Below are positions 16,330 through 22,694 of a stretch of DNA of 22,694 bases, piece by piece. The notes under the pieces are model-generated. The model was not told the origin of the DNA. It searched no databases and was given only the letters and a program-made list of their open reading frames with translations. The stretch lies in IMG/VR virus record IMGVR_UViG_3300021347_000040, positions 1-22,694 of that record. One strand, written 5' to 3'. Numbering within the stretch: the stretch's first letter is position 1; each line of letters starts with the position of its first letter. Made by a program: the position numbers and the translations under genes. This stretch comes from a virus.

Positions 16330-16772
16330 TGTACGACAACATCAAAGAAATGCTAATCAAGAATGAAGGGTTAGTATGTACTCCTTATCATTGTAGTGCT
16401 AACAAGCTGACAATAGGCGTAGGCAGGAATTTAGAAGCAAATGGCATATCAGAAGAAGAAGCTATGTTTATGCTTGAGAATGATATTAATAGAGTAGTAG
16501 CTAATTTAGATAAGGTTTGGGAAGTATGGAGAAGTTTTCCTGTACCTGCTCAAGAAGTATGTGTTGATATGGCATTTCAAATGGGTATAGCAGGATTTAT
16601 GAATTTTAGACAAACACGAGCTCTGATGGAGATGGGTTGTTGGTTGGAAGCATCAGAGGAAGTTTTAAGAAGTAAGTATGCAGTTCAAACACCAAATAGG
16701 GCAGCTAGGAATTCAAGAAAACTAGCTTTGTGTAAAAGTGCCAAGAAAAACATCAGACCAACATCAAGCTAA
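16329..16772 (+). CDS. Endolysin, GH24 T4-type lysozyme
   Basis: Predicted product of 147 residues. Glu13 (NEG), Cys22 and Thr28 (LTIGVGR) fit the family motif E-8aa-(D/C)-5aa-T exactly, with Cys in place of the T4 Asp20. The C-terminal QTPNRAARNSRKL matches the T4 segment around QTPNRAKR. It cleaves the N-acetylmuramic acid - N-acetylglucosamine bond of peptidoglycan. There is no signal peptide or obvious signal-anchor, so it should depend on the holin for release. It is slightly shorter than T4 lysozyme (164). The end overlaps the next gene by 35 bases. Confidence 0.85.
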   Translation: MYDNIKEMLIKNEGLVCTPYHCSANKLTIGVGRNLEANGISEEEAMFMLENDINRVVANLDKVWEVWRSFPVPAQEVCVDMAFQMGIAGFMNFRQTRALMEMGCWLEASEEVLRSKYAVQTPNRAARNSRKLALCKSAKKNIRPTSS

Positions 16773-17184
16773 TTCTAGACTTGGTGCATTAGGAGAATCA
16801 TTAGTTCAAACCTTCTTGCTTGAATACGCTGACTTTTGTTATCCCACCCAAGAAAAACATCCTGCTGATTTAATGGTTGAATTTGGTTCAGCTAAATATA
16901 CAGTGCAAGTAAAAAGCAGAAGAGCTACTAAAGAAAAGAAGTTTATTTTTGCTGCTGAAAACTCAAGGTCAATGTCTGAAACTTATAAACATTACACTTG
17001 CGATATTCTAGCTTTTGTATTCTTTAATGAAGATAAAAAGCGAATCATGTTTAAAGCAAATACATCATCACAAAACTATTTTACTTTTGATAGTAAAGTT
17101 ATCACTGAATCTATGGAATTAGATTCTCTAAAAGAAACACTGGATAATCTAAGTTCAGTACCAGTTCTAAATCCTTTAATTTAA
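16738..17184 (+). CDS. PD-(D/E)XK-type nuclease-like protein
   Basis: Predicted product of 148 residues from GTG 16738, the only plausible early start, overlapping the lysozyme gene by 35 bases. LGALGESLVQTFLLEY (Glu20), then HPADLMVEFG (Asp44) and TVQVKSRRA (Gln57-Val-Lys59) follow the E...D...(E/Q)xK arrangement of PD-(D/E)XK nucleases related to resolvases and restriction enzymes, with Gln at the usual Glu, as seen in several such families. Substrate is unknown. It ends the structural/lysis gene run. A resolvase or a host-DNA-cutting enzyme are both possible; inactivity is not excluded. Confidence 0.6.
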   Translation: MPRKTSDQHQANSRLGALGESLVQTFLLEYADFCYPTQEKHPADLMVEFGSAKYTVQVKSRRATKEKKFIFAAENSRSMSETYKHYTCDILAFVFFNEDKKRIMFKANTSSQNYFTFDSKVITESMELDSLKETLDNLSSVPVLNPLI

Positions 17185-18884: not shown

Positions 18885-19063
18885 GAGAGATAACACTAAA
18901 CGAAGTAGGGCAGACAAAACCCTTGATACTAAACATAAGACAAATCAGAGGTTACTACAGAGATGTCTTTACTGGTGAAACTAAAGTGCAAACTGAGAAT
19001 AGAGAATATGTAGTCAGAGATTCTTTATACGAGATAGGTTATTTGATGGGAGTTAATAAATGA
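18881..19063 (+). CDS. 60-residue protein, unknown function
   Basis: The product starts MREITLNEVGQTKPLILNIRQ, continues GYYRDVFTGETKVQTENREYVVRDS, and ends in YLMGVNK. It is probably all strands. It overlaps the exonuclease gene by four bases (ATGA), so it is translated with it. A small accessory factor for recombination is possible from position only. Confidence 0.6.
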   Translation: MREITLNEVGQTKPLILNIRQIRGYYRDVFTGETKVQTENREYVVRDSLYEIGYLMGVNK

Positions 19064-19890
19064 AAATAGAATCACTTAAAAACTTTGAATCTAAGCAAAA
19101 GGGTCAGGCTCTTATTTATAAAGACTTACCCAACGAGGACTATCATGCAAGTGTAGGTATCAGCAGTAGTTATGTTAGAAGGTTTGGGCAATCCCAACTT
19201 CATGCAGTCAACTATACTTCTGAATCTACTCCAGCACTAAAGTTTGGAACAGCAGCTCATTCTTTATTAGTAGAAGGACAAGAAGCATTTGATAAAGAAG
19301 TCAGGGTGATTACAGGTTCTCCATATACTAAAGCATATAAAGAAGAGAAGGCTGAATATGAAGAGCAGGGATTCATAGTATTAAAAGAAGATGAAGCTGA
19401 GATTATTACTAGCATGAAAGAGAATATGATATATGAGGGTAATGCTTATCTAAATGCAATTGGCAAGATACCTGAAGCAAGTATCTACTGGTATGAAGAT
19501 GATGTGTTGTGCAAATGCAGACCTGATGCTATGTGTCCGCCTTTAGATGAACCTAATTCAGATAACAAGATAGTTATTATTGATTACAAGACTACACAGT
19601 CATGCGAACCTCATGCTTTTAATTATTCAGTTAAGAAGTATGGCTATGATATGCAAGCTGCTTATTATAGAAGAGGTGTTGAGATGGCAGGATATGAAGT
19701 CACTGATTTCTTATTCATAGCTCAAGAAAAAGTACATCCTTATGCATCTAAAGTATTTAGAATCACAAAAGAACAAATGGATTATGGCTGGACTATGATG
19801 GAGCAATACCTGAATGATTATAAAGAATATCAAAAAGGTAAACCTCTAAGTATTTACAATAGTCCTAATGTTGTGGATTTGGTTTTATAG
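19060..19890 (+). CDS. RecE-like PD-(D/E)XK exonuclease
   Basis: Predicted product of 276 residues. EDYHASVGISSSYVRR (26-41) and LKFGTAAHSLLVEG (60-73, His67) are the typical N-terminal motifs. The active site follows with RPDA (Asp156), IDYKTT (Asp175, Lys177) and YDMQAAYYRRG (Gln199). This matches the DUF3799/exodeoxyribonuclease VIII (RecE C-terminal) family, which degrades the 5' strand of duplex DNA for single-strand annealing. Phages usually pair it with an annealing protein. None of a known family is next to it; the SSB-tailed protein at 21973 is a candidate partner. All core residues I look for are present. Confidence 0.8.
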   Translation: MKIESLKNFESKQKGQALIYKDLPNEDYHASVGISSSYVRRFGQSQLHAVNYTSESTPALKFGTAAHSLLVEGQEAFDKEVRVITGSPYTKAYKEEKAEYEEQGFIVLKEDEAEIITSMKENMIYEGNAYLNAIGKIPEASIYWYEDDVLCKCRPDAMCPPLDEPNSDNKIVIIDYKTTQSCEPHAFNYSVKKYGYDMQAAYYRRGVEMAGYEVTDFLFIAQEKVHPYASKVFRITKEQMDYGWTMMEQYLNDYKEYQKGKPLSIYNSPNVVDLVL

Positions 19891-19899
19891 GAGAGAGAG

Positions 19900-20802
19900 A
19901 TGGATAAAATATTTTTACAAAAATTAAGCAATATGTTGGACTTGGCAAGTGACATGAATAAATTTGGTAATCATTTCATTATTGATGTTGAATGTAAAAA
20001 TCACACTGTAAAAGACCTAAATACTTTTGCACATAGAATTAAACAAATATCAAATAATGTTAATGATGCCACTAAATTTTTTTTAACAAACAATGTTAGA
20101 GATTTTTTTGCAGATAATTTTGTTGACATTTGCAAGATGGATAAAATGAAGCAGGAATTTAGACTGCCTACAGATAAACCATTATTAATACAATACAGTG
20201 ATTTGAATAGAACAATAGTTATTAATGAAATTAGTGGATTTTCTTACGCTGATTATCAGGTTGATTTCTTTGTAAATTATAAAGATACCAAACAAATAAT
20301 GATAAATCCTTATATGTCATTTGTATTTAGTAAAAACTTTTTTATTGAGCTGTTAGATAAATTCCCTCAACAAATATATTTAAATTTTCATAAACAAGAT
20401 TATGCAGATTTAGTAGAAACCACAAAAGAGTGGAGAGAAAACAGGATGCATCAAATATTTGAATTATTAATGATTTATTTTTCTGTAATAAATTTATCCA
20501 ATGATTTAGATATATTTGAAGAAAAAAAAGTTACTGGTTTAAAGAAACAACTACATCAAAAATTTTCATTAGCATCATTTATTAGTAAACCAGTTTATGA
20601 GCACATTACATTAGATATTAATATTAATAATAAAAATTACACAAATAATGGTGATGGTAGTCAAAGTAAGAAAAGATTGCATGGTGTAAGAGGACATCTA
20701 AGACAATTACAAAATGGAAAAATAGTTTGGGTCAATCCATACAAAAGAGGTGATGCATCATTAGGTGTTATAACAAAAGATTACAAATTAGATTTAAGGT
20801 AA
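19900..20802 (+). CDS. Unrecognised 300-residue protein with RLHGVRGH...WVNPYKRGD C-terminus
   Basis: Preceded by a strong AGGAGAGAGAG (19879-19889). The body is rich in Phe, Asn and Asp, and mostly helical from about 180 to 240, without a catalytic motif I know. The last 44 residues are different: basic, with RLHGVRGHLR (259-268), WVNPYKRGDASLG (277-289) and KDYKL. I recall this end in other phage proteins of unknown function; it may bind nucleic acid. Asn/Thr-rich linker (about 242-255) separates the parts. Lies between exonuclease and the attenuator-like element. Confidence 0.65.
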   Translation: MDKIFLQKLSNMLDLASDMNKFGNHFIIDVECKNHTVKDLNTFAHRIKQISNNVNDATKFFLTNNVRDFFADNFVDICKMDKMKQEFRLPTDKPLLIQYSDLNRTIVINEISGFSYADYQVDFFVNYKDTKQIMINPYMSFVFSKNFFIELLDKFPQQIYLNFHKQDYADLVETTKEWRENRMHQIFELLMIYFSVINLSNDLDIFEEKKVTGLKKQLHQKFSLASFISKPVYEHITLDININNKNYTNNGDGSQSKKRLHGVRGHLRQLQNGKIVWVNPYKRGDASLGVITKDYKLDLR

Positions 20803-21261: not shown

Positions 21262-21361
21262 GTGGATTCTATATTTTATTGCAGGAATATTTGGATTAGT
21301 ATTTATAGGAATCATTTTAAGTGTATTAGCATTTATATACATAATTAAAGAGTTAGATTAA
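21254..21361 (+). CDS. 35-residue membrane peptide
   Basis: Reads MLEWILYFIA GIFGLVFIGI..., a single long hydrophobic span (about 4-31) with a polar end (KELD). No strong ribosome binding site; the start lies inside the end of the preceding gene and its stop overlaps the next ATG (TAATG), which suggests coupling. Role unknown. Confidence 0.5.
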   Translation: MLEWILYFIAGIFGLVFIGIILSVLAFIYIIKELD

Positions 21362-21795
21362 TGGTAAACAGTAGAAATAAAGGTGCAGCTTTTGAGAGGG
21401 TTATAGTTAACAAACTTAATGCAGTTTTAGAAGAAAAAGGTTTAGATGAGAGAGTAAAAAGAAATCTTGACCAGTATCAAACTAAGGGCATGGCTGACAT
21501 TTATTTCAGGAACTTTGCTATTGAATGTAAACGATATAAGAACAATGGTAAGCAGAATATTTACAAGAACGAATGGTGGCAACAAGCAATAGATAGTGCT
21601 GGTGATAACTTAATACCTATATTGATATACAAGTTTGATAGAAGAAGCATTATGGCTGTAGTGCCTTTATTTTTAATGAACAACTTTGATAAAGCTAATT
21701 GGGAATGCACATATATGTGTCCTTTATCAGATATATGTGAAAGGTTAGATGAAATCATACAAAAGGCAGATGGATTTAAACAGTTACCTGCTTGA
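21361..21795 (+). CDS. Holliday-junction-resolvase-like PD-(D/E)XK nuclease
   Basis: Predicted product of 144 residues. NKGAAFERVIVNKLN (Glu12), KGMADIYFR (Asp46) and FAIECKRYK (Glu55, Lys57) make up a complete E-D-ExK active site, followed by EWWQQAIDSAGDNLIPILIYKFD. This matches phage endonucleases related to archaeal Hjc resolvases, which cut branched DNA during recombination and before packaging. It lies in the recombination/replication cluster between RecE-like exonuclease and the SSB-tailed protein. The exact substrate cannot be read from sequence. Confidence 0.75.
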   Translation: MVNSRNKGAAFERVIVNKLNAVLEEKGLDERVKRNLDQYQTKGMADIYFRNFAIECKRYKNNGKQNIYKNEWWQQAIDSAGDNLIPILIYKFDRRSIMAVVPLFLMNNFDKANWECTYMCPLSDICERLDEIIQKADGFKQLPA

Positions 21796-21958: not shown

Positions 21959-21972
21959 CCATAGGAGAGTAT

Positions 21973-22596
21973 ATGGATATATTAGGTGGAATGAGTAATT
22001 CCAACAATGAGAGTCAGCAAGTTTATCTTGCTTTTAAAACATCACATCAGCAGTTTTTTGCTAATGGTGAAACGCCTGTAGATTTTCAATACATGCAACT
22101 TGACCCTGCAACATTCAAATCAGGATGGGGTAGGTATACAAAAGTTAGCGGTTTTGAATATGTATGGGATGATAAATTTACTGTAATTAGTCCACAGCCT
22201 GCTGATGACTATAAAAGAGCATTTAGTGCTTGGGTATTTCCTCAAGGAGCACAACATGCTTACTTATGGCAAAGGTTTAGCTGGGCTGAATCAACTGCAT
22301 TTAATAATATCTTAAATGGATTTTGGAATCAGATGGATGCTAATTCAGATAGCTTGCCTGTAGTTAAGTTTGAAGGTTCTAAACCTATTCAAGTCGGTGC
22401 AGGTAATTCATCAGATATACAATTCAGCTTTGCTAAATTTGCACCAAGAAGTGATGGTTTTGTAATACCTCAATGGTATTTAGACCAAGAAGCACCAGTA
22501 GAGGATACATTTAAAAGTCCTAATGATGGTCTTAGCGATAAAGTAGCTGAGATGGTTAGTCAGAATGAATTAACAGATGACGATATACCATTCTGA
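21973..22596 (+). CDS. Putative ssDNA-binding/recombination protein with SSB-type DDDIPF tail
   Basis: Predicted product of 207 residues with AGGAGAG (21962-21968) upstream. The last six residues are DDDIPF, the same as the C-terminal tip of bacterial SSB, which docks many repair and replication proteins; an acidic stretch precedes it. The body (about 15-170) is rich in aromatic residues (RYTKVSGFEYVWDD, HAYLWQRFSW) and looks strand-rich, but I cannot recognise a standard OB fold or RecT/Erf motif. Position between resolvase and primase suggests a phage ssDNA-binding protein; inference is moderate. It overlaps the next ATG by one base (TGATG). Confidence 0.6.
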   Translation: MDILGGMSNSNNESQQVYLAFKTSHQQFFANGETPVDFQYMQLDPATFKSGWGRYTKVSGFEYVWDDKFTVISPQPADDYKRAFSAWVFPQGAQHAYLWQRFSWAESTAFNNILNGFWNQMDANSDSLPVVKFEGSKPIQVGAGNSSDIQFSFAKFAPRSDGFVIPQWYLDQEAPVEDTFKSPNDGLSDKVAEMVSQNELTDDDIPF

Positions 22597-22694
22597 TGCA
22601 ATCAGTAGATTGGCAAAGAATAGCACCTGAAGTTGCAAAGCAATTATTAGGTGAACCCACTAGCACCTCATCTAATGAATTAAGATGGGGTCGC
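22596..22694 (+). CDS. Start of a putative phage primase/helicase (3' partial)
   Basis: Thirty-three codons are visible (MQSVDWQRIA PEVAKQLLGE...NELRWGR), open to the right edge. The opening IAPEVAKQLLGEP followed by a LRWGR block is what I expect at the N-terminus of phage Toprim primases or primase-helicases, where the text usually continues with a GSL motif. The start overlaps the stop of the SSB-tailed gene by one base. The call is from a short stretch and gene context, so it is tentative. Confidence 0.5.
   Translation, partial: MQSVDWQRIAPEVAKQLLGEPTSTSSNELRWGR

Follow-up and report, generated by a model that had tools for sequence, protein, structure and literature searches.

Introduction

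A survey of Firmicutes phages has described a module of a duf2800 nuclease, gp2.5 and polA in which ssb genes are absent (PMC8093625). ORF6 of Enc34 is a Gp2.5-like single-stranded DNA-binding protein (SSB) with an OB-type core, and its acidic tail gives the protein its preference for ssDNA (PMC5686142). The stretch of virus DNA analysed here, hereafter the window, is 22,694 nucleotides long (IMG/VR record IMGVR_UViG_3300021347_000040, positions 1 to 22,694) and encodes a 207-residue protein that recalls these systems. Like the Gp2.5-like proteins and Enc34 ORF6 (DUF2815, PF10991, PF21265, phrog_112), it is encoded close to replication genes and a PD-(D/E)XK nuclease, where ssb is lacking, and it has a disordered acidic C-terminal tail behind a core predicted to be beta-rich, with OB-type structural neighbours at Z scores under 6. 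A Gp2.5-like protein moreover holds the same locus, with nearly the same tip, in phage CRP-406. The window family, however, has no sequence or profile match to PF10991, PF21265 or phrog_112.

Other known systems share some of these features. T4 and RB69 gp32 are among the best solved-structure neighbours of the window protein (within the top four, over 132 residues) and resemble it in their acidic C-tail and, putatively, in a role in both replication and recombination, a Dda-type helicase being encoded near the family gene in jumbo phages; on the other hand, there is no profile match, the Z score is lower than a firm homologue would give, and the window protein contains no cysteine at all and thus no zinc site of the gp32 type, which has Cys ligands. 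Bacterial SSB (PF00436) ends in the identical DDDIPF tip and likewise combines an ordered core with a disordered tail, but no PF00436 match was found in the window core and no Pfam match in 54 family members. RecT/Red beta, Erf and Rad52-type annealing proteins are comparable in that the family adjoins a RecE-like exonuclease, yet no sequence match to them occurs in any of 31 records. More generally, none of the characterised ssDNA-binding proteins was matched at the level of sequence, and T7 gp2.5, T4 gp32 and E. coli SSB all gave negative results in profile comparison (hhalign for SSB). Since anatomy and context fit the Gp2.5/Enc34 pattern and sequence does not, the window protein is assigned to a new sequence family rather than to Gp2.5 or gp32.

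Gene organisation and neighbourhood

The features of the locus and of the encoded protein are as follows.

19060..19890, + strand: RecE/ExoVIII-like PD-(D/E)XK exonuclease, upstream partner gene (DUF3799 3e-24, ExoVIII phrog_412 9e-60)
21361..21795, + strand: putative Holliday junction resolvase, PDDEXK_15 / RusA-like (Pfam PF24608 2.4e-11, phrog_244 4.5e-17)
21973..22596, + strand: ORF of the putative phage ssDNA-binding/annealing protein, 207 aa, stop codon included
22015..22491, + strand: predicted folded core, residues 15-173 (AlphaFold2, 54-sequence alignment; beta-rich, OB-like, one helix 104-120 between strand pairs)
22492..22575, + strand: acidic, probably disordered linker, residues 174-201 (low confidence, pLDDT <50 for most)
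22576..22593, + strand: DDDIPF C-terminal tip, residues 202-207, the same six residues as the E. coli SSB tip
22596..22694, + strand: RepA-like primase-helicase, start only, as the window ends within the gene (full-length homologue L039:8624-10567)

The ORF at 21973-22596 (+) comprises 207 codons and a TGA stop, is preceded by an AGGAG ribosome-binding site at 21963-21967, and encodes a protein ending in LTDDDIPF, whose residues 174-207 include 9 acidic and 2 basic residues (pI 4.05). The ATG of the primase-helicase overlaps the TGA (TGATG), an arrangement that suggests translational coupling. The RecE-like exonuclease that the initial annotation had noted in the window was confirmed by both profiles listed above.

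Of the 151 family loci for which 3.5 kb or more of preceding sequence was available, 147 have a PD-(D/E)XK exonuclease homologue upstream, encoded on the same strand. Its type changes among clades: the main marine clade and the Manatee Spring clade have DUF3799/ExoVIII, sphingomonad phages have phrog_10230/PDDEXK_1, and two marine subclades and the jumbo phages have the RecE-like phrog_434. As many of the 151 loci are closely related, the independent cases are fewer, namely three exonuclease families and at least five clades. The RepA-like primase-helicase is present in 30 of the 31 long contigs, the exception being the window, which ends before the gene is complete.

Two further ORFs of the window were recorded. 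The one at 19900-20802, between exonuclease and resolvase, encodes a 300-aa protein matching phrog_10678 (unknown function) at 1e-8, and the one at 16738-17184, whose position beside the lysozyme-like gene is conserved in related contigs, encodes a protein of 148 aa in which a PD-(D/E)XK signal is weakly present. Separately, the contig IMGVR_UViG_3300050343_000089 (65678 bases; loci L095 and L104) contains two copies each of the family gene, the DUF3799 gene and the helicase gene, separated by about 33.9 kb; it may hold one genome duplicated in tandem, or it may be a concatemer produced by assembly.

Extent of the protein family

Searches of Pfam, PHROG, NCBIfam and PDB sequences returned no family matching the window protein, in agreement with its earlier description as unrecognised, and no paper describing it was found in a literature search. 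Homologues nevertheless number well over 100: 57 close relatives were collected from IMG/VR in a first scan and 141 in a profile-guided scan, with more distant ones added later. When the window protein was compared by tblastn with phages and plasmids, the best E values were around 1 or worse. Among these, the very weak matches in a Caenibius phage-plasmid and in a Manatee Spring phage (E about 1 and 5) correspond to a protein of 205-206 aa encoded immediately upstream of a RepA-like helicase and were retained because synteny and profile comparison back them; a match in Butyrivibrio was dropped, being located in a structural gene. Scans seeded from the two retained matches showed that many contigs and phages of sphingomonads and other alphaproteobacteria carry the family, and tblastn reached large phages of Caulobacter, Brevundimonas, Sphingobium and Mesorhizobium, in which the family gene adjoins polymerase, exonuclease and Dda/RecD-type helicase genes.

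Profile comparison linked the marine with the sphingomonad clade (E 1.8e-11), the sphingomonad clade with the Manatee Spring phage (3.5e-15) and the 54-sequence profile, from which the jumbo-phage set had been left out, with that set (4.8e-17), and a direct search of four large genomes gave family matches of 1e-14 to 3e-17. These values support common descent of the marine, sphingomonad, Manatee Spring and jumbo-phage members. Weak matches of some members to Cas3f, EF1G, DUF1131, DUF3472, a methyltransferase and galactose-6-phosphate isomerase (PDB, 0.004) were judged to be due to chance, as they vanish with the full alignment or are confined to few members. By its tail protein the virus is closest to pelagiphages among isolates (28-34% identity), and its host is therefore probably a marine alphaproteobacterium.

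Conservation of the C-terminal tip

Residues 202-207 of the window protein are identical to the last six of E. coli MG1655 SSB (which ends MDFDDDIPF), in line with the bacterial SSB tip of the initial annotation; the SSB of the virus's own host may end differently. The tip is unchanged in 27 of 27 aligned relatives down to 66% identity, and across 54 aligned members, down to 13% identity, the invariant columns are reduced to M1, G51 and the terminal F207. A final Phe was counted in 92 of 95 distinct family C-termini (FG and FA ends included); among 1,036 other ORFs taken from these loci as background the share is 6.5%. Among the 155 loci with a D[DE]D[IV]PF tip, 33 different DNA versions of it occur, and pairwise codon differences are synonymous in 1,338 cases and non-synonymous in 194. 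In this clade it is therefore the peptide that is under selection rather than the DNA, even though the stop codon overlaps the start codon of the next gene. Judged from these patterns, the DDDIPF tip is not a product of chance in this family.

An acidic SSB-like tip is not universal in the family. Besides DDDIPF, the ends include DEDIPF, DDDVEF, ELDEF and DDEIPF, a GAPLF form in one sphingomonad clade and a basic RRxRF type in the jumbo-phage relatives. For the DDDIPF clade, the exact tip makes use of the host SSB interaction network plausible.

Predicted structure

The structure prediction and fold search that the initial annotation had proposed yielded a confident core whose neighbours are mostly OB folds at modest scores (Z <6). 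AlphaFold2 with 54 divergent sequences gave a mean pLDDT of 79, with values >90 over most of residues 21-160 and <50 for most of residues 174-207; a run with a shallow alignment of 26 close relatives (pLDDT 48) was set aside. In the predicted model eight strands come first, then a helix at 104-120 and finally two long strands. A Foldseek search of the PDB gave no match at E <= 0.001. The top rows of VIA-align were the phiC31 recombination directionality factor (RDF, Z 5.7), the T4 gp32 core (1gpc, Z 5.4 over 132 residues at 3.9 A), RB69 gp32 (2a1k, 5.3) and gp32-Dda (5.0), followed by HIN, BRCA2, CST, Rim1, RPA, SSB and PrgE. Nucleic-acid binders with an OB fold make up about 21 of the 30 neighbours listed, at Z values of 5-6 that the tool describes as a possibly common arrangement and that are insufficient alone to prove a fold. 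Structures of the T7 gp2.5 / Enc34 type are absent among the rows listed, which weighs neither way. In a viral fold library, the best matches were unnamed phage proteins and a protein of phiCbK (5e-8), in agreement with the family link.

On the predicted model, the core would be an OB fold. The observation that the body carries no OB-fold, RecT or Erf signature holds at the level of sequence, whereas the predicted structure points to an OB fold. Positions W52 and Y55 are aromatic and K81 is basic in 54 of 54 members, making these three residues candidates for contact with DNA.

Standard ssDNA-binding and annealing proteins

Profile searches of 31 records (the window and 30 related ones), with working controls, detected SSB (PF00436), RecT, ERF and Rad52 in none of them, and neither the window protein nor the 54 members matched PF03837, PF04404 or PF04098. 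Similarly, the Gp2.5-like profile matched 0 of 37 family-bearing records, although the same profile did detect CRP-406. The records are mostly incomplete, so that these absences are strong in sum and not for each record, an SSB elsewhere in any one genome being possible. Nothing in the window itself matched RecT, Erf, Rad52 or SSB, and the view that its exonuclease has no classic annealing partner was upheld. A Sak4 match (phrog_124) in one record was rejected, since it falls inside the helicase ORF. Idiomarinaceae and Salicola phages with related helicases encode a putative annealing protein or Sak4 together with a Cas4-type exonuclease.

In the Roseobacter phage CRP-406, which likewise has a PDDEXK_15 nuclease, a DUF3799 exonuclease and a homologous primase-helicase, a different protein fills the slot between the exonuclease and the helicase. 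This protein is annotated as ssDNA-binding, matches phrog_112 (Gp2.5-like) at 5.4e-16 and ends in MDFDDEIPF; no relation of it to the window-protein family was detected, nor was the family found in the CRP-406 genome. If the family and the Gp2.5-like proteins had the same function, a replacement of this kind is what one would expect to see.

Discussion

The window protein is best explained as an ssDNA-binding protein that the phage supplies for itself and that probably also anneals strands, acting in a replication-recombination module (probability about 0.78). The observations underlying this explanation are the gene family itself, the conservation of its tip, its gene context, the lack of every standard SSB or annealing family tested, the displacement in CRP-406 and the confident predicted core. 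The initial annotation had considered a new type of ssDNA-binding or annealing protein. With regard to an unrecognised ssDNA-binding protein that is possibly the annealing partner of the exonuclease, this idea is well supported by the family context, the lack of the standard families tested, the Gp2.5-like replacement and the OB-like predicted core, but "new type" is too strong: on the best reading the family is new in sequence, whereas its function is a known one (compare T7 gp2.5, Enc34 ORF6 and T4 gp32). A more far-reaching proposal is that this is a separate family in which a single polypeptide does the work of both SSB and annealing protein, pairs interchangeably with several PD-(D/E)XK exonuclease families and, in some clades, uses an exact copy of the host tip to hijack the enzymes that bind host SSB; it is put forward tentatively, with somewhat worse than even odds.

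The proposed mechanism involves an OB fold, ssDNA binding, annealing and tip-mediated recruitment, all of which we infer. Within a module of exonuclease, Holliday junction resolvase, window protein and primase-helicase, the OB-like core would coat the ssDNA produced by exonuclease and helicase, with W52, Y55 and K81 as likely members of its contact surface. The disordered acidic tail would compete for the DNA site and keep the protein off duplex DNA, and the DDDIPF tip, given its identity to that of SSB, may dock host enzymes that normally bind the bacterial SSB tip or, alternatively, phage proteins imitating those enzymes.

Because the exonuclease pairing is constant across several exonuclease families, a putative annealing role is worth testing, and the protein could in principle be a dedicated single-strand annealing protein for the exonuclease, in a RecT-like role, and no replicative SSB. 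The upstream exonuclease in 147 of 151 loci despite its changing family, the lack of any other annealing protein of the families tested, and the use of Sak4 or a putative annealing protein with a Cas4-type exonuclease by phages with related helicases are all in line with this. Linkage to the primase-helicase is equally constant, however, jumbo phages add linkage to polymerase and Dda-type helicase genes, and an acidic tail with an SSB tip is typical of SSBs; a role in annealing alone is therefore unlikely, bearing in mind that Gp2.5-type proteins unite both roles, which makes the two readings hard to separate. It is improbable that the tip is instead a decoy titrating host SSB-binding enzymes (e.g. 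RecO, PriA, ExoI) for takeover or counter-defence, on a body that does not bind DNA. The tip is indeed exactly of host type, and in related phages a protein of about 190 aa and one primase-helicase bear it too, but the body is strongly conserved and OB-like, the gene lies within a replication-recombination operon in all clades, and a decoy would leave these phages without any ssDNA-binding protein of the tested families.

Two alternatives arise from individual matches. The rank of the phiC31 RDF in VIA-align (first, 134 residues aligned) and a named RDF among the viral fold matches (E 0.015) could indicate that the protein is an RDF of the phiC31 gp3 kind. The Z of gp32 is nevertheless within 1 of that value, the family is present in jumbo phages too, and a serine recombinase occurs in just 3 of the 31 (partial) records, none of the marine clade; with serine integrase absent from the marine-clade contigs seen, this very improbable reading was rejected. 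The label nucleotidyltransferase, carried by jumbo-phage relatives (Lacusarx, Caulobacter phage C1) and by phrog_9528, which 14 of 54 members match (best 2.5e-6), is hardly credible as a description of function: a Pfam domain of that kind was found in 0 of 54 members, no such fold is among the structural neighbours listed, and the gene context is that of an SSB. On the large-phage members it is very likely a propagated misannotation.

If the family is what it appears to be, the ssDNA-binding/annealing component that RecE-like exonucleases have been missing would be found, both for marine phages and for phages of alphaproteobacteria as large as the Caulobacter jumbo phages, and the propagated label would be corrected. 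The compact exonuclease-annealing pair would then be a candidate for genome editing in Alphaproteobacteria. As the same tip is found on unrelated proteins at one locus (the family and the Gp2.5-like protein of CRP-406), phage recruitment of host SSB partners becomes directly testable.

Some annotations and tips in related phages are recorded as minor observations. The proteins at L170:4926-5927 and L171:4602-5447 are labelled nucleotidyltransferase or polyribonucleotide nucleotidyltransferase (phrog_9528). In alphaproteobacterial relatives, a second, unrelated protein of about 190 aa encoded near the helicase also ends in an SSB-like tip (L230:10901-11503, L182:3787-4359, L174:8320-8910, L191:5989-6555 and L226:8051-8611), the tips being DELSDIPF, LDDDIPF, DDEIPF, GDELPF and SDEIPF, and the primase-helicase L190:5622-7964 of one phage itself ends in SDDIPF.
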